From an uncultured Polymorphobacter sp. (lineage in GTDB: Bacteria; Pseudomonadota; Alphaproteobacteria; Sphingomonadales; Sphingomonadaceae): 13,908 nt of DNA. The notes beneath the pieces are model-generated. The model did not search any database. It was not told where the DNA came from and worked only from the letters and a program-made list of their open reading frames with translations. Location: the NCBI GenBank assembly GCA_937894055.1, contig CALDHQ010000269.1:1-13908 (forward strand), in the 5' to 3' direction. This document shows positions 1 through 6,973 of this stretch, in pieces. A program made the translations under genes and the position numbers. How positions within the stretch are numbered: position 1 is the stretch's first letter; the number at the start of each line of letters is the position of its first letter.

Positions 1-170
1 CCGCCGCGCCATTGCCCGTCATCCACGTCGATGACCTCGACGCGGCACTCACGGCGGTCACTCAGGCCGGCGGCGTTGTGACCAAGCCGGTGTTCGGCTT
101 TCCCGGCGGGCGGCGCTTTCATTTTCGCGATCCGGGCGGGAATGAACTGGCGGCGATGCAGGCGGACTAA
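1..170 (+). CDS. VOC/glyoxalase-fold protein, C-terminal fragment
   Basis: The reading frame is open from the window edge (first full codon at 3) to TAA at 168-170, so only about 55 C-terminal residues are visible. The segment VIHVDDLDAALTAVTQAGG followed by a final strand ending FRDPGGNELAAMQ is the typical second half of a vicinal-oxygen-chelate (glyoxalase/bleomycin-resistance) module. In that fold the last conserved Glu, here in GNEL, is often a metal ligand. The substrate cannot be told from this piece; many small family members are uncharacterised. In many alphaproteobacteria aroA precedes cmk, so finding a VOC gene here, separated from cmk by repeats, suggests local rearrangement. The family call is fairly secure and the specific function is unknown. 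Confidence 0.75.
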   Translation, partial: AAPLPVIHVDDLDAALTAVTQAGGVVTKPVFGFPGGRRFHFRDPGGNELAAMQAD

Positions 171-173
171 GAC

Positions 174-211
174 TTAAGGGCCTCCGGCGGGCAGGGGCTT
201 GCCCCTGCACC
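174..211 (+). repeat. Palindromic repeat family A, copy A1
   Basis: This 38-nt element starts just after the VOC stop codon. It has a conserved head (AAGGGCCTCCGGCGGGC) and a hairpin, GCAGGGG (191-197), loop CTTG, CCCCTGC (202-208). It is identical over its whole length to the reverse complement of copy A4 (6936-6973), about 6.7 kb away. The position right behind a stop codon and the hairpin suggest a REP-like element that may also act on mRNA 3' ends. That role is inferred. Confidence 0.85.
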
Positions 212-229
212 TATTTGTTGAAGAACCGG

Positions 230-295
230 GTCATTCCCGCGCAGGCGGGAATCCATCTTCGGCGCCGCATGGATTCCCGCCTACGCGGGAATGAC
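230..295. repeat. Inverted REP-like pair (ATTCCCGC...GCGGGAAT)
   Basis: Two 27-nt arms, 230-256 and 269-295, are reverse complements with a single mismatch (C243 against the T282 position), separated by 12 nt. Each arm also contains its own hairpin, ATTCCCGC and GCGGGAAT around a 4-nt loop. Repeats built on this core are widespread in intergenic regions of proteobacterial genomes, including sphingomonads and xanthomonads. Such sequences are usually non-autonomous REP/BIME-type elements. No transposase or RAYT gene is present in the window. Confidence 0.85.
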
Positions 296-306
296 AATGG
301 ATAAAT

Positions 307-342
307 GGGTGCAGGCCTCAGGCCTGCTCGCCGGAGGCTCTT
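307..342 (-). repeat. Palindromic repeat family A, copy A2 (inverted)
   Basis: This is a diverged, inverted copy of the 174-211 element. Read on the minus strand it begins AAGAGCCTCCGGCGAGC and then forms the hairpin GCAGGCC, 3-nt loop, GGCCTGC (arms 311-317 and 321-327). The stem sequence differs from copy A1, but both strands of the stem changed together. With A1 it brackets the inverted pair at 230-295, giving a nested symmetric block from 174 to 342. It ends 43 nt before the cmk start. Confidence 0.8.
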
Positions 343-385
343 CCCGCACTTGTCGCCCCCTGCTCTGTCGGTCTATGCCGCGCCC

Positions 386-1036
386 ATGACTTCGCACCGC
401 GCCATGATCATCGCCGTCGACGGCCCCGCCGCGAGCGGCAAGGGCACCATTGCGCGCGCACTGGGGCGGCATTTCGGGTTGCCGCATCTCGATACCGGCA
501 AGCTGTATCGCGCGGTCGGGCTGGCGCTGTTGCGCGCCGGGGTAGACCCCGCCGATGCGGTGGCGGCTGCGGCTGCGGCACGTGAGCTTGATGCCGCGCT
601 GCTCGATGATATGGCGATCACCGATGACGCGACCGCCGCTGCAGCATCGATCGTGTCGGCGCATCCGGCGGTGCGGGCGGCGTTGATCGACCGCCAGCGG
701 GCATTTGCCGGTCAGGCCGGCGGCGCGGTGCTCGATGGCCGCGATATTGCCACCGTTATCGCACCGCATGCAGACGCCAAATTGTTCGTGACCGCCAGCC
801 CGCCGGTGCGTGCGGCGCGGCGTCATGCCGAGCTGACGGGCAAGGGCCAAAGCGTCGAGTTGGCAACTATTCTTGCCGATATTCAGGCGCGTGATGCGCG
901 CGATTCGAACCGCGCTGCGGCGCCGCTGGTGCAGGCTGCCGATGCTGCCTTGCTCGATACGAGTGAAATGAGTATAGACGCGGCCGTCGAACGGGCCGTG
1001 GCGCTGGTCAAGGCGCAGCTCGCAGCGGCAGCTTGA
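386..1036 (+). CDS. cmk: Cytidylate kinase
   Basis: The product transfers phosphate from ATP to CMP or dCMP in the cytosol, a step of pyrimidine nucleotide synthesis and salvage. The 216-residue protein has the P-loop GPAASGKGT at residues 13-21. It also has the [10 protein letters not shown] substrate segment, the DGRDIATVI motif, and the late signature [20 protein letters not shown] with the paired Arg and Asp residues typical of Cmk. Length matches the family (about 210-230). The frame is open upstream to 305, but that extension runs through repeat A2, so ATG 386 is preferred. ATG 404, just before the first beta strand (MIIAVDGP), is the alternative. Neither start has a strong Shine-Dalgarno. 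The downstream neighbour is rpsA, the usual bacterial arrangement. Confidence 0.95.
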
Positions 1037-1047
1037 AGGCAATTTCG

Positions 1048-1090
1048 TGCATGGACGGGCCACCAGCCCGTTGCCGTGCATTTTCCTTTG
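1048..1090 (+). terminator. Terminator-like hairpin between cmk and rpsA
   Basis: A stem forms between TGCATGG/ACGGGC (from 1048) and GCCCGT/CCGTGCA (to 1080), with loop CACCA, a small bulge and one G-U pair. It is followed directly by TTTTCCTTT at 1081-1089. The hairpin plus T-rich tract begins 12 nt after the cmk stop. It could end part of the cmk transcript or attenuate read-through into rpsA. The T tract is interrupted, so efficiency is uncertain. Confidence 0.5.
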
Positions 1091-1116
1091 CGCTGCAGTT
1101 TTCGACGGACAAGGGG

Positions 1117-1165
1117 AGCATGGCATGGTGCCATGCTTCGGCGAAGAACGGGTGGCATGGTGCCA
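1117..1165 (+). promoter_or_regulatory. Twin palindromes in the rpsA leader
   Basis: A perfect 9-bp inverted repeat (AGCATGGCA, TGG, TGCCATGCT) occupies 1117-1137. Its core TGGCATGGTGCCA recurs at 1153-1165. The two cores start 32 bp apart, close to three helical turns, and lie 69-113 nt before the rpsA start. They could be hairpins in the mRNA leader or a tandem operator for a dimeric DNA-binding protein. Ribosomal protein S1 represses its own translation in E. coli, but no such leader is established here, so the role is inferred. Confidence 0.4.
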
Positions 1166-1233
1166 TTCGGGGCAATGACCGGACAAGCCGCGTGCAGCGG
1201 TCGGCGCCCGACAAGACGAAGGTTATGAACTAG

Positions 1234-2973
1234 ATGGCATCTTCTGCCCAACCGACCCGCGATGATTTCGCAGCCATGCTCGAAAGCTCGCTCGGCAAGA
1301 ACCAGAGCTTTGAAGGCCGCGTCGTCAAGGGACGCGTCACCGCGATCGAGAATGATCTCGCGGTTATCGATGTCGGACTGAAGTCCGAAGGCCGTGTCGC
1401 GCTGCGCGAATTCGCTGCACCCGGCATGAAGGCTGAACTCAAGGTCGGCGACGAAGTCGAAGTCTATGTCGACCGCGTCGAAAACGCCCAGGGCGAAGCG
1501 ATGCTGTCGCGCGACCGTGCGCGCCGCGAAGGCGCCTGGGACGCTCTCGAAACGCAGTACGCCGCGAATGAGCGCGTCGAAGGCGTCATCTTCGGCCGCG
1601 TCAAGGGCGGCTTCACTGTCGACCTCAGCGGCGCCGTGGCGTTTCTGCCCGGTTCGCAGGTCGATATCCGCCCGGTGCGCGATGTCACCCCGCTGATGAA
1701 CCTGCCGCAGCCGTTCGTGATCCTGAAGATGGACCGCAAGCGCGGCAACATCGTCGTGTCGCGTCGCTCGATCCTCGAAGAAACCCGCGCCGAAGCCCGC
1801 ACCGGTCTGATCCAGTCGCTCGCCGAAGGCCAGATTGTCGACGGCGTCGTCAAGAACATCACCGATTACGGTGCGTTCGTCGACCTCGGCGGCATCGACG
1901 GCCTGCTGCATGTCACCGACATGAGCTACAAGCGCGTCGGCCACCCGAGCGAAGTGCTCAACATCGGCGACACGCTGCGCGTGCAGATCGTCCGCATCAA
2001 CCGCGACACGCAGCGCATCAGCCTCGGCATGAAGCAGCTCGAAGCCGATCCGTGGAGCGCTGCTGCTGCCAAGTATCCGGTTGACGGCAAGTTCAAGGGC
2101 CGCGTCACCAACATCACCGAATACGGCGCGTTCGTCGAACTCGAACCCGGCATCGAAGGCCTGGTGCACGTTTCGGAAATGTCGTGGGTCAAGAAGAACG
2201 TCCACCCCGGCAAGATCGTTTCGACGAGCCAGGAAGTCGAAGTCATCGTGCTCGAAGTCGATGAAGACAAGCGCCGCATCAGCCTCGGCCTCAAGCAGGC
2301 CCAGCGCAACCCGTGGGAAGTCTTCGCCGAAGCGCATCCGGTGGGCTCGATCGTCGAAGGCGAAGTCAAGAACGCCACCGAATTCGGCCTGTTCATCGGG
2401 CTCGACGGCGATGTCGATGGCATGGTCCACATGTCGGATATCGCGTTCGGCCTGACCGGCGAACAGGCGCTGGCGCAGCACCACAAGGGTGAACGCGTCC
2501 GTGCCCAGGTTCTCGAAATCGACATCGAGAAGGAGCGCATCAGCCTCGGCATGAAGCAGCTCGATGAAACCCGCGTCAGCGGCGGCGCCACCGGCGCTGC
2601 AGCGGTTGCCGGTGAAGCCGGCAGCGAGTTCAAGAAGAACCAGGTCGTCACCGTGACGATGGTCGAAGCGCGCGACGGCGGCATCGAAGTCCAGGTTGGC
2701 GAAGATGGCCCGCTGGCGTTCATCAAGCGTGGCGACCTCAGCCGCGACCGCGACGAACAGCGCCCCGAACGCTTCCAGGTCGGCCAGAAGATCGACGCGA
2801 TGGTCATTGGTTTCGAACGCGGCAAGAAGCCGATGGTCTCGATCAAGGCCGCGCAGATCGCCCAGGACAAGGAAGCTGTCGAAAAGTACGGTTCGTCCGA
2901 CTCGGGCGCCTCGCTCGGCGACATCCTCGGTGCCGCGCTCAACCGCGCCAAGGAAGGCAGCGACAAGGCTTAA
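1234..2973 (+). CDS. rpsA: 30S ribosomal protein S1
   Basis: S1 binds mRNA at the small ribosomal subunit and helps initiation on structured or leaderless-weak messages. The 579-residue protein shows six S1 (OB-fold) repeats at about residues 25-95, 110-175, 198-268, 285-355, 370-442 and 465-540. The middle repeats carry the consensus ITDYGAFVDL / ITEYGAFVEL and end in the RISLGMKQL-type closing strand. E. coli S1 has 557 residues, so the length is normal. ATG 1234 is preceded by GAAGG (1218-1222) and directly abuts a TAG at 1231-1233. Codon use is strongly biased (GAA, AAG, CGC), as expected of a highly expressed gene. It lies downstream of cmk behind a 197-nt structured leader and is closed by a strong terminator. 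Confidence 0.98.
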   Translation: MASSAQPTRDDFAAMLESSLGKNQSFEGRVVKGRVTAIENDLAVIDVGLKSEGRVALREFAAPGMKAELKVGDEVEVYVDRVENAQGEAMLSRDRARREGAWDALETQYAANERVEGVIFGRVKGGFTVDLSGAVAFLPGSQVDIRPVRDVTPLMNLPQPFVILKMDRKRGNIVVSRRSILEETRAEARTGLIQSLAEGQIVDGVVKNITDYGAFVDLGGIDGLLHVTDMSYKRVGHPSEVLNIGDTLRVQIVRINRDTQRISLGMKQLEADPWSAAAAKYPVDGKFKGRVTNITEYGAFVELEPGIEGLVHVSEMSWVKKNVHPGKIVSTSQEVEVIVLEVDEDKRRISLGLKQAQRNPWEVFAEAHPVGSIVEGEVKNATEFGLFIGLDGDVDGMVHMSDIAFGLTGEQALAQHHKGERVRAQVLEIDIEKERISLGMKQLDETRVSGGATGAAAVAGEAGSEFKKNQVVTVTMVEARDGGIEVQVGEDGPLAFIKRGDLSRDRDEQRPERFQVGQKIDAMVIGFERGKKPMVSIKAAQIAQDKEAVEKYGSSDSGASLGDILGAALNRAKEGSDKA

Positions 2974-3007
2974 CTGCCGAACCGCTGACGACCAGCACAC
3001 GAACATC

Positions 3008-3040
3008 AAGCCCCGCCGATTGGTTTCGGCGGGGCTTTTT
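3008..3040 (+). terminator. Intrinsic terminator of rpsA
   Basis: The perfect 11-bp stem AAGCCCCGCCG / CGGCGGGGCTT (3008-3018 and 3027-3037) has an 8-nt loop and ends in a TTTTT run at 3036-3040. It lies 34 nt after the rpsA stop. This is a textbook rho-independent terminator and separates rpsA transcription from ihfB. Confidence 0.92.
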
Positions 3041-3139
3041 GTCGCCCGCCCAAGAATTCGGTGCAATTCCAGTAAAATGGAGTATCGTCTGGTGTTTGGG
3101 GGCTGATGGCGCGAGTCGCGGTTGGTAGATGGGGGATCT

Positions 3140-3421
3140 ATGATTCGGTCGGAACTGGTACAGGCAATCGCGGCGGCGAATCCGCAACTCACCAAGGAAA
3201 TCGTCGAAAACCTGATCGACACGATATTCGGCGAGATCACCGAAGCACTGGCCGCAAACCGCCGCGTCGAGCTGCGCGGCTTCGGCGCGTTTTCAACGCG
3301 CGCCCGCGATGCCCGCGTCGGCCGCAACCCGCGCACCGGCACATCGGTGTCGGTCAGCGCCAAGCGCGTGCCCTATTTCAAGCCCGGCAAGGAATTACGC
3401 GAACGCCTCAACTTGTCGTAG
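3140..3421 (+). CDS. ihfB: Integration host factor subunit beta
   Basis: This subunit pairs with IHF alpha (encoded elsewhere) to form a DNA-bending nucleoid protein. The complex is used in transcription, replication and recombination. The 93-residue sequence is a complete HU/IHF fold: [18 protein letters not shown] at the start, [11 protein letters not shown] before the arm, the arm-tip signature GRNPRTG that carries the intercalating Pro, and [11 protein letters not shown] at the end. [10 protein letters not shown] and the N-terminal MIRSEL favour the beta subunit over HU or IHF alpha. ATG 3140 is chosen because GGGGGA lies immediately upstream (3131-3136); a TTG at 3122 would only add six unconserved residues. 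Since rpsA ends in a terminator, the gene probably has its own promoter in 3041-3130. A TAAAAT at 3073-3078 could be a -10 box, but no convincing -35 is visible. Confidence 0.95.
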
Positions 3422-3452
3422 AGGCGCGCACTCGCCAGCTTGCCAAGCCCAT

Positions 3453-3539
3453 GCCCACGTGGCGGAACTGGTAGACGCAAGGGACTTAAAATCCCTCGGC
3501 CGCAAGGCCGTGCCGGTTCGATTCCGGCCGTGGGCACCA
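3453..3539 (+). tRNA. tRNA-Leu (anticodon UAA)
   Basis: The acceptor stem GCCCACG (3453-3459) pairs with CGTGGGC (3529-3535), followed by A and an encoded CCA (3537-3539). The D arm GGCGGAACTGGTAGACGC, anticodon stem AGGGA/TCCCT, a class II long variable arm and the T arm GGTTCGATTCC are all present. The anticodon loop CTTAAAA reads TAA at positions 34-36, which decodes UUA/UUG. At 87 nt with a long variable arm it is a normal leucine tRNA. It starts 31 nt after the ihfB stop. Confidence 0.97.
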
Positions 3540-3675
3540 TTTGTTTGCGGGGATTGGCGCGTGCCTGAGCGCGTTTGACTTATCATTGGACAATAATCGC
3601 GATATCCGTCATTTTCCCGGTATTGGCGCAAACTGCCGCGGCATACGGCGTTTGCTGAATCGGGGAGACTTTGAA

Positions 3676-3882
3676 ATGCCAACGACACGTGGTGGTGGTG
3701 ATGCCGGTGGCCGCAGTGGCGGTCGCGCTCCCGGTACTGATGAAGTTGCGCCCGCGGGCACGACCGAGCGTGGCGGCGGTGACGCCGGCGGACGCAGCGG
3801 CGGTCGTGGCGGCGGTGACGCCGGTGGCCGCAGCGGCGGTCGTGGCGGCGGCGACGCCGGCGGACGCAGCGGCGGACGCTAA
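3676..3882 (+). CDS. Small Gly/Arg/Asp repeat protein, four GGGDAGGRSGGR units
   Basis: The 68-residue product starts MPTTR and contains four exact copies of GGGDAGGRSGGR, at residues 6-17, 33-44, 45-56 and 57-68. Copies 2-4 are head to tail and end exactly at the C-terminus. A 15-residue spacer with the segment APGTDEVAPAG follows copy 1. There is no signal peptide or membrane segment, and the composition suggests a disordered, net-basic chain. ATG 3676 has a good ribosome site (GGGGAG, 3662-3667). The frame stays open upstream to 3541, but that part lacks repeats. Copies 1 and 2 differ in 7 of 12 codons, all synonymously, which argues that the peptide is translated and selected. I know no named family. 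The next gene, 153 nt on and on the same strand, is a CHAT-domain protein, so a partner or substrate role is possible but unproven. RGG-like nucleic-acid binding is an alternative. Confidence 0.75.
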   Translation: MPTTRGGGDAGGRSGGRAPGTDEVAPAGTTERGGGDAGGRSGGRGGGDAGGRSGGRGGGDAGGRSGGR

Positions 3883-3890
3883 GACCATGC

Positions 3891-3950
3891 GCCGGTCGCA
3901 GCGACCGGCCTGACGACAAGACGCCGGCGCCGGAGTTCCAGCGCCGGCGT
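3891..3950 (+). terminator. Two tandem hairpins after the repeat-protein gene
   Basis: Nine-base arms GCCGGTCGC and GCGACCGGC (3891-3909) meet around a single base. A second hairpin with perfect 10-bp arms ACGCCGGCGC / GCGCCGGCGT (3921-3930 and 3941-3950) has a 10-nt loop. The following TGTTGCAATTT is only moderately T-rich. The hairpins begin 8 nt after the stop codon. They probably terminate or attenuate the short transcript, or protect its 3' end, before the CHAT gene. Confidence 0.55.
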
Positions 3951-4035
3951 TGTTGCAATTTCGGACGATTGGCGCGAGTGAACAAACCCGCCTGCGTGCC
4001 GCACAATCCGACGCCACAAAAACTGGTCCGAACCC

Positions 4036-6873
4036 ATGGCCGACACCAAATCCTCCCCCGCCGACGCACCCGCCGACGCGCTGCGCCTGACCGTCGTCAA
4101 CGGCGACCTGTCCTACGCGCACTATCCGGTCATCGTCGGGCATTTCGCCGGCGATTCGATTTCCGGCCCCGAAGCGCGGCTCGATGCGGCGCTCGATGGC
4201 GCATTGTCGCGGCGCTATGCGCTCGGCATCTATCCCGCCGGCGTCGGCAGCGTCAGCTATGCCGCGCAGCCTGTTGACCGGCGCCCCGGCGGCGTCGTCG
4301 TCGGGCTGGGCAATATCGCCGACTTCAGTGCCGGTACGATCCGCAGCGCGCTGATTGCCGGGCTGATCGAACTGGCGCTCGGCGAAGGCCAGATCGCCCG
4401 CGTCCGCGATACCATCGGGCGCCTCGATGGCGGCACCAACCCCGCCCCGCGCAACGGCGCCGCGATGGTGATGATCGGCACGCGCACCGGCGTCGTGTCG
4501 ATGACCGACACGCTGGCGGCCATGCTCGGCGCCATTGTCGAAGCACAGCGCCGGCTCGCCGAGCAGAAGCTGCGGCCGTTCACCAAAATCCAGATCTTCG
4601 CGTATATGGAAGACACCGCGCACACGATCTGGCACACGCTCGACCGGCTGATCGCCACCCCGCAGTTCCGCGGTGCCTTCGCGCTCGACGGCGAAGTCGC
4701 CTACCGCGACGGCGCCGCGCGGCGTATTGCCCGCGACGAAAATCTCGATGCCTGGCGCGCGCTGCAGATTCAGGAGGCCGCGCTCGCCGATGGCAGCAAG
4801 GGGCTGCGCTTCGCGTCGATCGGCGGCAGCGCCCGCGCCGAAGGCATGCTCGTCGCCGGCAACCGCGAATTCGTCGATAAATTTGCCGCGACCATCTACA
4901 ACACGCACGAACCCGCCGCCGCATGGCAGGCCGCCGCGCGGTCGCTCTATCAGTTGATCTGGCCGCAGCAGCTCAAGGCGACGCGCTTCGACAACCGCCA
5001 CCTGCGCCTCATCCTCGATACGACGGCGGCGTCGCTGCCGTTCGAACTGATGGACGACCGTCAGGATCACGAGGCGGAACTTGATGGCAGCCGCCCGCCG
5101 GCGGTACGCTTCGGCATCCTGCGCCAGCTCATCCAGCAGGACTATGCGCGCCGCCAGACCGCCGCATCGGGCGAACGCACTGCACTCGTCATCGGCGACC
5201 CGCACGACGGTGACTGGAACTTCGGCTTCAACCGCCTGCCCGGCGCGCAAGCCGAAGCCACATTGGTCGCCGACCAGCTCGAACAGGCCGGCTACGCCGT
5301 CACCCGGCTGATCGGCGCGGGCAATCCGCCCGAAACCGTCATCGAACATGTGCTGCGCGGCGGTTGGACGGTGCTGCACGTATCGGCGCACGGCATTTTC
5401 GATTTCACCTTCAAGCGCGAAGCGGACCTCGAAGACTCCGGCGCCATCCCCGCCGGCAGCGCCCAGCGCTACACCGGCGTACTGCTTGGCGACCACATCG
5501 TCATCAGCCCCGCCATCCTGCAGGCGATGCCCGATCCGCCGACCTTCGCGTTCATCAACTGCTGCGAGCTCGCGGCGATTTCACCGCGCCAGGAAGAACG
5601 CTTCCACACCAGCGGCCGCCCGGAGTTCGCCGCGAGCTTTGCCGCGCAACTCATCGCCATGGGCACCCGCGCCGTCATCGCCGCCGGCTGGACGGTCGAT
5701 GACAAGGGCGGGAAGCTGTTCGGCGGCGAAATCTACAAGGGCCTGCTGGCGAACAGCGCCGGCTTCGGCGAAGTCGTGCTGAACGCCCGCACCGCCGTCT
5801 ATGAGGCCAACCCCGATGACAGCACCTGGGGCGCCTACCAATGCTACGGCGAGCCCGACTGGCGGCTGAGCCCGAAGAATGGCGACGAACCCGCCACCAC
5901 CACCTCGCTGCCGCACGGTGCGCGCCTCGCTTTCGCCTCGCCCGCCGAAGCCATCGCCTTCATCGACACCATCCGCGAACAGATCGAAGTCGGCTCGGGC
6001 CGCGCCGGCCAGCGCGATGCGCTGCTCAAGTCACTGACCACGCTACAAACCCGTTTCGACAAGCGCGGCTGGCTCGGCCGCCCGCACGTCGCCGAAGCCT
6101 TGGGCCGTGCCTTTGCCGCGCTCAACGAATCCACCGGCGCGATTTCGTTGTTCGAACGCGCGCTCCACGAAGATGCGCTGCCGTCGGTGCAGCTGCTCGA
6201 ACAGCTCGCGACGCTGCGGCTGCGCGCCGCCGTCGCACCGCTGGAGGGCGGCGGCTTCGCCCCCGACGCGTTCGACCGCATCGCCGCCGTCCGCGCCGAT
6301 ATCGAGGCGCTGTGCAAGATCGCCGGCCCCACCGTCGAACGGCTGACGCTGATCGGCGCCACGCACAAGCGTGAGGCGCTGCTGCAAACCGGCGCCACCG
6401 TCGATGCGACGCTTTCCACGATGCGCGACTGCTACCGCGCCGCCTGGGCGCTCGCGCACAGCCGCGGCGATGCCAATGCCTATTACCCCGGCCAGCTGGT
6501 CGTCGAGGCCGGGCTGCTCATCGACCTGCGCGCCGGCCATGCCGCCAGCGACGCCACCAAGGCCGACCTCACCCAACTCGCCGCCGACCTCGCCGTGGGC
6601 GAGGAACAGCTCGACGACTATTGGCACGCCGCCAGCCGCGCCGGCTACTTGCTGTTCGAACAGCTCGCTGCCGGCACACTGTCACAAGCCGCACACGACG
6701 CCATCGTCCACTGCTACGACAAGGTCATGCTCCGCTGCGGCAGCAATTTCGAATTCGAAACCACGCTGTCCGACATGCGCTACATGCGCACCCAGCTTGG
6801 CTCCGGCAATGGCGCTGCCGCCGCCGCATGGATTGCGTCGATCGAGGATGCGATTGCGCGGTTGGAGGCGTAG
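4036..6873 (+). CDS. CHAT-domain (caspase-like) protein with M17-N-like and helical C-terminal regions
   Basis: This is a 945-residue, probably cytoplasmic protein with no signal peptide. Residues about 15-130 resemble the macro-like N-terminal domain of M17 leucyl aminopeptidases: VIVGHFAGD, LDAALDGALS, then RPGGVVVGLGN followed by a helix. Residues 140-260 are helical. Residues about 280-615 form the CHAT domain: LRLILDTTAASLPFELM, the His motif VLHVSAHG with the candidate catalytic His452, and FINCCELA with the candidate nucleophile Cys510 (Cys509 sits where most relatives have Ala). It closes with WGAYQCYGEPDWRL. Residues 650-945 are Ala-rich paired helices, including a TPR-like stretch (LGRAFAALNESTGAISLFERAL). 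CHAT proteins are clan CD cysteine peptidases related to caspases and separase, and several act in prokaryotic immunity or programmed death. ATG 4036 is the first in frame and has a weak ribosome site. The substrate is unknown; the upstream repeat protein is a candidate. Confidence 0.88.
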   Translation: MADTKSSPADAPADALRLTVVNGDLSYAHYPVIVGHFAGDSISGPEARLDAALDGALSRRYALGIYPAGVGSVSYAAQPVDRRPGGVVVGLGNIADFSAGTIRSALIAGLIELALGEGQIARVRDTIGRLDGGTNPAPRNGAAMVMIGTRTGVVSMTDTLAAMLGAIVEAQRRLAEQKLRPFTKIQIFAYMEDTAHTIWHTLDRLIATPQFRGAFALDGEVAYRDGAARRIARDENLDAWRALQIQEAALADGSKGLRFASIGGSARAEGMLVAGNREFVDKFAATIYNTHEPAAAWQAAARSLYQLIWPQQLKATRFDNRHLRLILDTTAASLPFELMDDRQDHEAELDGSRPPAVRFGILRQLIQQDYARRQTAASGERTALVIGDPHDGDWNFGFNRLPGAQAEATLVADQLEQAGYAVTRLIGAGNPPETVIEHVLRGGWTVLHVSAHGIFDFTFKREADLEDSGAIPAGSAQRYTGVLLGDHIVISPAILQAMPDPPTFAFINCCELAAISPRQEERFHTSGRPEFAASFAAQLIAMGTRAVIAAGWTVDDKGGKLFGGEIYKGLLANSAGFGEVVLNARTAVYEANPDDSTWGAYQCYGEPDWRLSPKNGDEPATTTSLPHGARLAFASPAEAIAFIDTIREQIEVGSGRAGQRDALLKSLTTLQTRFDKRGWLGRPHVAEALGRAFAALNESTGAISLFERALHEDALPSVQLLEQLATLRLRAAVAPLEGGGFAPDAFDRIAAVRADIEALCKIAGPTVERLTLIGATHKREALLQTGATVDATLSTMRDCYRAAWALAHSRGDANAYYPGQLVVEAGLLIDLRAGHAASDATKADLTQLAADLAVGEEQLDDYWHAASRAGYLLFEQLAAGTLSQAAHDAIVHCYDKVMLRCGSNFEFETTLSDMRYMRTQLGSGNGAAAAAWIASIEDAIARLEA

Positions 6874-6876
6874 TTC

Positions 6877-6910
6877 AAGGGCCTCCGGCGGGCAGGCCAG
6901 AGGCATGCAC
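6877..6910 (+). repeat. Palindromic repeat family A, copy A3
   Basis: It starts 3 nt after the CHAT gene stop codon with AAGGGCCTCCGGCGGGCAGG, identical over 20 nt to copy A1. The hairpin is GCAGGCC (6892-6898), loop AGA, GGCATGC (6902-6908), with one mismatched pair. The stem type matches copy A2 rather than A1. It pairs with inverted copy A4 to give a large cruciform-capable structure behind the CHAT gene. Confidence 0.82.
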
Positions 6911-6935
6911 CCATTTGAAGAGCGCCTAAAAGTTG

Positions 6936-6973
6936 GGTGCAGGGGCAAGCCCCTGCCCGCCGGAGGCCCTTAA
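6936..6973 (-). repeat. Palindromic repeat family A, copy A4 (inverted)
   Basis: The reverse complement of this 38-nt stretch is identical to copy A1 at 174-211. The hairpin is GCAGGGG (6939-6945), loop CAAG, CCCCTGC (6950-6956). Copies A3 and A4 face each other across about 25 nt, and their conserved heads can pair as long outer arms. The block may act as a terminator of the CHAT transcript and, because it is symmetric, may insulate the pilus genes that follow. Confidence 0.85.

Follow-up and report, generated by a model that had tools for sequence, protein, structure and literature searches.

The window, i.e. the whole stretch of 13,908 nucleotides that was analysed, carries in order cmk, rpsA, ihfB, a tRNA-Leu gene, a short ORF encoding a 68-residue Gly/Arg repeat peptide, an ORF encoding a 945-residue CHAT protein and a group of Tad-pilus genes (Table 1), the names cmk, rpsA and ihfB being assigned from the sequences together with S1 and DNA-binding profiles. 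The first-pass annotation had proposed the two ORFs as a candidate protease/substrate module. Its description was correct in coordinates, lengths, repeat unit (four copies) and catalytic residues (His452 and Cys510), and the CHAT gene lies directly downstream on the same strand as far as gene order is concerned, with a gap of 153 nt containing two hairpins between the genes.

Table 1 Features of the peptide/CHAT locus (window coordinates)
Feature	Position	Strand	Basis or remark
tRNA-Leu(TAA)	3453..3536	+	Rfam tRNA 59.6 bits; ARAGORN tRNA-Leu (taa) in own-genome locus L020
GGGGAG, Shine-Dalgarno-like	3662..3667	+	8 nt before ATG at 3676; identical in two other species
68-residue Gly/Arg repeat peptide gene	3676..3882	+	matched in 3/98 relatives, all of the same genus; codon comparison
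Repeat unit 1, GGGDAGGRSGGR	3691..3726	+	residues 6-17
Acidic spacer APGTDEVAPAGTTER, diverged	3727..3771	+	9/15 residues unlike species G002; final Arg retained
Repeat units 2-4, GGGDAGGRSGGR x3	3772..3879	+	residues 33-44, 45-56, 57-68
Hairpin 1	3891..3909	+	RNA fold of 3880-4035; sequence conserved across the genus (alignment)
Hairpin 2, GC-rich, followed by TGTTGCAATTTC	3921..3950	+	RNA fold of 3880-4035; alignment
945-residue macro-fold/CHAT/TPR-S protein	4036..6873	+	ORF, profiles, structure model
N-terminal macro-fold domain, residues 13-214	4072..4677	+	structure model
CHAT peptidase domain, residues 298-606	4927..5853	+	Pfam PF12770 E 5.7e-25; repeat search, same position
His452 codon, putative catalytic	5389..5391	+	motif in 25/26 proteins
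Cys510 codon, putative nucleophile	5563..5565	+	NCC motif in 25/26 proteins
C-terminal TPR-S / ASK1-like helical region, residues 635-940	5938..6855	+	TPR-S profile; ASK1 fold in model

The larger protein belongs to the CHAT peptidases, its PF12770 match scoring 88.8 bits against a cut-off of 24. His452 lies within HVSAHG and Cys510 within FINCCEL, and among the 26 proteins surveyed both motifs were absent only from P0003, which has no CHAT region; Cys509 is conserved as strongly as Cys510. The C-terminal part belongs to TPR-S, based on the PF20308 profile at residues 701-819 and the ASK1-like fold. The N-terminal domain is macro-like by fold alone, in the structure model. The profile of the ADP-ribose-binding macrodomain (PF01661) found no match at E 0.001 in the genome itself and matched in 8 of 14 control genomes. 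By sequence the domain leans toward the N-terminal domains of M17 aminopeptidases (PF02789), with a weak score in the window protein (12.5 bits against a cut-off of 23.4) and, with E values up to 1 admitted, matches in 14 of 19 family members (best E 0.00089). The structure model has a mean pLDDT of 71.9 with values below 50 at residues 327-379, 510-531 and 605-629, and since this includes the surroundings of the active site, the cleft was left uninterpreted. The 50 Foldseek matches listed included macro, aminopeptidase and TPR proteins, with no CHAT protein among them.

The CHAT family is wider than this locus. Relatives which are 40-50 % identical (P0004-P0018) have no hydrolase part and are known as proteins alone. 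In P0019, P0020, P0022 and P0023, which are 27-32 % identical over 63-95 % of the window protein, alpha/beta-hydrolase domains (DUF7379, in part LCAT) precede the shared part, whereas the window protein has no such N-terminal hydrolase part; all four have CHAT and three have TPR-S, one of these below the cut-off. The CHAT gene is likewise extended upstream in L004-L006 and L014-L017, where the sequence or the length, rather than a profile, was taken to indicate a hydrolase-like part. P0003 (560 residues, 77-79 % identical), which retains the N-terminal domain and TPR-S, is either a natural CHAT-less form or an assembly artefact.

A candidate defence locus is present on a Rhizobium leguminosarum plasmid (L013, 3014-16904), where a CHAT gene of the family stands alone and is flanked by large TIR-domain genes at distances of about 1.0 kb (upstream) and 1.7 kb (downstream). 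An Ensifer locus has, upstream of CHAT, a large gene whose sequence looks like that of a STAND NTPase. The neighbourhoods, together with the TPR-S literature, suggest that the CHAT family is a conflict-system family. Two Paracoccus plasmids (L014, 2087-10778, and L015, 2098-10643) carry a gene of 1,094 or 1,081 residues immediately before the long CHAT gene, separated from it by 37 nt or overlapping it by 4 nt. None of nine distant CHAT loci (L004-L006, L013-L018) contains the exact unit, and thus the family does not need the unit. Gly-rich stretches are present near CHAT in L014, L015 and L017 as candidate frames, none showing the unit, and tandem-repeat scans of three of the nine loci (L013, L016 and L005) found none; a partner of another kind would have escaped these searches.

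The small gene looks real, because the core of the unit is fixed, the differences in its DNA are silent and the spacer diverges. The core GGDAGGRSGGR is present in all four window units, in the three complete units of L011 and in one unit of L003, both of species G002. When the units were compared pairwise within each genome (six pairs in the window and three in L011), 27 + 14 = 41 nucleotide differences were obtained, all of them at third positions and silent, while for this unit 29 of 99 single changes are expected to be silent; the pairs share copies and the 41 differences are thus not independent events. All complete units were included and none was selected by its peptide. Units 1 and 4 of the window alone gave seven silent differences out of seven. 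When the window is compared with G002, units 1 and 2 together show five silent and no replacing codon changes, compared to one silent and nine replacing changes in the 15-residue spacer. In Polymorphobacter arshaanensis the core is kept in three of five units, and the 18 silent differences between these three are outside the total of 41; units chosen for an identical peptide can by their choice show no replacing change. The two degenerate units, GGDISKPSGGR and GGDLGGTSGGR, are four and two codons off the core, respectively, and both retain the final GGR. Across all ten pairs of units in this species, 43 codon differences are silent and 22 are replacing. Selection seems to keep the repeat unit unchanged. 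A 27-base unit pattern (at most three mismatches) is found four times in the window but never in 200 shuffles, which, as the pattern was derived from the same units, says only that the repeat is not a chance self-match. A pattern search for the peptide in viral contigs gave no match. A profile built from three peptide sequences had a single match (E 5.2), to another Gly/Arg-rich protein that we hold to be unrelated.

Used as queries, the peptide and the CHAT protein each matched three of 98 relatives, the same three in one genus, and neither gene was found alone among these relatives at E 0.001. The G002 assembly breaks within the peptide gene, so that one contig has the 3' end of the gene ahead of CHAT and a second contig has the 5' part, following ihfB and tRNA-Leu. 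The two genes do occur together, and of the proposed module it stands that both are real, judged by sequence, and accompany each other in three genomes. It does not stand as independent evidence of a link, since all three genomes share one syntenic locus; the pair is best regarded as one such locus in one genus, and the co-occurrence counts once. In a draw of 397 genomes of the family, the CHAT query P0005 matched those same three only, and the peptide matched 12 at E 0.01, of which the three strong ones were all from the genus. The other nine (E 0.001-0.009, 18-21 bits, six with internal stop codons) were attributed to composition and dropped. In the draws from the order (396 genomes, E 1e-30) and from the class (385 genomes, E 1e-10) the CHAT query matched a single genome each time, the own genome. 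It further matched five loci in genome contigs, two of them from this genus, and nine plasmid records, of which six were fetched, and had no match in viral contigs and phages.

The tRNA-Leu gene is the left border of the slot holding the pair. The nearest named genome that we met is that of P. arshaanensis, with a CHAT protein 94 % identical; its DNA aligns to window positions 13-6943, i.e. up to about 70 bp past CHAT, and the ORFs beyond this point are unlike those of the window. A repeat of 40-45 bp is present in opposite orientations at window positions 303-342 and 6873-6917, the latter copy directly past CHAT and close to the synteny break, and also in P. arshaanensis L002 (1161-1205, 1259-1296 and 7842-7881) and in L003 (3067-3106). 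In loci from other genera the slot after ihfB and tRNA-Leu carried different genes in all 16 cases read, out of 27 loci (ten had no tRNA-Leu in the stretch, and in L048 it is further away), the contents being judged by eye from the two longest frames per locus, without profiles. Six of the 16 (L026, L032, L036, L037, L042 and L046) hold a PilZ-like protein, similar by eye, and the others vary; the genomes concerned match neither query. The pair is thus shared cargo in a slot of changing content, yet a single event. In L039 a long minus-strand frame beside tRNA-Leu resembles, by eye, a phage-type integrase, and tRNA-Leu may be an integration site in the genus of that locus.

It is quite possible, at somewhat less than even odds, that the two genes are unrelated neighbours in this variable slot, a repeat gene with its own ribosome site and 3' hairpin followed by a separate accessory CHAT gene. 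The RNA fold of 3880-4035 has an energy of -69.3 kcal/mol (z -3.64), equalled by one of 200 shuffles, and two hairpins so placed fit separate transcripts; hairpin 2 is a possible weak terminator or attenuator, uncalled by the terminator scan, which requires a T run. Between 3400 and 4200 the promoter scan found zero sigma-70-like sites (0.2 expected), and the terminator scan a single site on the minus strand (1.0 expected). The other genes found in the 16 slots, the single syntenic locus and the nine distant CHAT loci without the unit agree with independence of the two genes. However, the pair is intact in three species although the alignment of P. arshaanensis with the window ends so soon after CHAT, the repeat unit is constrained, and neither gene occurs alone among the 98 relatives.

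A role unconnected with proteolysis, in which the small protein would be a disordered RGG-like repeat binding RNA or another anionic polymer, is rather improbable. Shifted by one residue the unit reads RGGGDAGGRSGG, which is RGG-like, and the peptide contains 30 Gly and 10 Arg in 68 residues, with 10 basic against 7 acidic residues. On the other hand its net charge is merely +3, every unit contains an Asp, no profile matched it, and a single-sequence database search found no relative at E 0.001. The same register affects how the arginines are read. An Arg stands ahead of every one of the 13 complete units read. Before tandem copies this is automatic, and the informative cases are the six non-tandem junctions, which follow the N-terminus or the spacer. 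Because the RGG-like register places Arg at every boundary automatically, its presence there is no proof of cleavage sites.

To our knowledge few bacterial CHAT proteases have established substrates. In the type III-E CRISPR system the csx30 gene lies near the gene for Csx29, the TPR-CHAT protein, which resembles the window protein in joining CHAT to a TPR part and has a dedicated partner protein in Csx30. In the window protein TPR-S is C-terminal, unlike the TPR part of Csx29. According to the available parts of PMC11106740 and PMC10028731, this complex (Craspase) is a precedent for a CHAT protease that has its own substrate; cleavage of Csx30 is at a single place and tolerates substitutions around the site. 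Csx30 is not a Gly/Arg repeat, whereas the window peptide is one. As far as the accessible text of PMC11106740 goes, the TPR-CHAT sites are, by species, A|S, L|D and M|K, none after Arg. The argument that Arg cleavage by clan CD enzymes makes the repeats likely targets is therefore weak and does not carry over to these CHAT enzymes. No gRAMP/Cas7-11, Csx30 or other CRISPR gene was found among the ten window proteins scanned, and within the window the locus is thus not a Craspase. Compared to SAVED-CHAT, a type III CRISPR effector, the window protein has a macro-fold domain in place of SAVED. BovA of the Borvo system contains a CHAT domain, and the PADLOC BovA profile matched four of 19 relatives weakly (best E 0.0023); the window protein had no PADLOC match at E 1 and is not assigned to Borvo. 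A small, fast-evolving precursor beside a peptidase is known from conflict operons (FxSxx, RxD, acidic and FtsH-associated peptides), where according to the available part of PMC7159879 a zincin serves as the peptidase and radical-SAM genes accompany some types, whereas here the peptidase is a CHAT cysteine peptidase. Neither zincin nor radical-SAM genes were found among the ten window proteins scanned, and the locus is not of the zincin type. The comparison also took in the accessible parts of PMC8195603, PMC10907252 and PMC11229360. Within a coverage that leaves out most subscription journals, no paper was found on the peptide/CHAT pair or on a repeat array beside a macro-fold/CHAT/TPR-S protein.

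Taken together, the analysis established both genes, the domains, the constraint on the unit and the linkage in three species, and our proposal, to which we give a probability of about 35 %, is that the two genes form a linked cassette and that the protease has the repeat protein as its partner, cutting or binding it. This genus-specific cassette of two genes would fill the slot that follows ihfB and tRNA-Leu. Its large gene would probably encode a cytosolic sensor-protease of the conflict-system kind, in which the macro-fold and ASK1-like TPR-S domains may keep the CHAT protease inactive in the absence of a signal. Its small gene would probably encode a disordered array of a fixed unit of 11-12 residues with Arg before and at the end of each copy, and this array might act as a dedicated partner, either cut at several sites into short peptides or occupying the active site. 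The link is favoured most by the constraint on the unit and by the continued presence of the unit next to CHAT while the DNA past CHAT has changed. The intact catalytic motifs, the assignment of CHAT and TPR-S by profile and of the macro and ASK1 folds by model, the Arg ahead of every complete unit and the occurrence of each gene in the same three relatives further support a partnership. The strongest points against the link are that it is a single event, that hairpins lie between the genes and that known CHAT sites are not at Arg and tolerate substitution; the two degenerate units of P. arshaanensis, the Foldseek matches listed without a CHAT protein and the weak model around the active site also weaken it.

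A toxin-antitoxin pair, in which the repeats silence a self-harming CHAT protease that is freed when the small protein is lost, is very doubtful, as the upstream position of the small gene, an order common among antitoxin-toxin pairs, and the unit constraint would fit it but the TPR-S and macro-fold domains already provide internal control and the relatives P0004-P0018 are known as proteins alone.

Within the proposed partnership, a more specific form is unlikely, namely that the array is polyprotein-like and is cut by CHAT at Arg-Gly junctions, releasing several copies of one signal or effector peptide of 11-12 residues in response to stress or phage sensed by the macro-fold and TPR-S domains. 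If true, the array would be a multi-copy peptide precursor of a bacterium, matured by a caspase-like enzyme. The pair, kept in a genus with a tiny, repetitive and constrained candidate partner, provides a cheap test case for CHAT substrates: if the array is cut, the CHAT protein would act as the caspase-like maturase of a repeat peptide, and if it is not, the array would be an orphan peptide needing a separate explanation.
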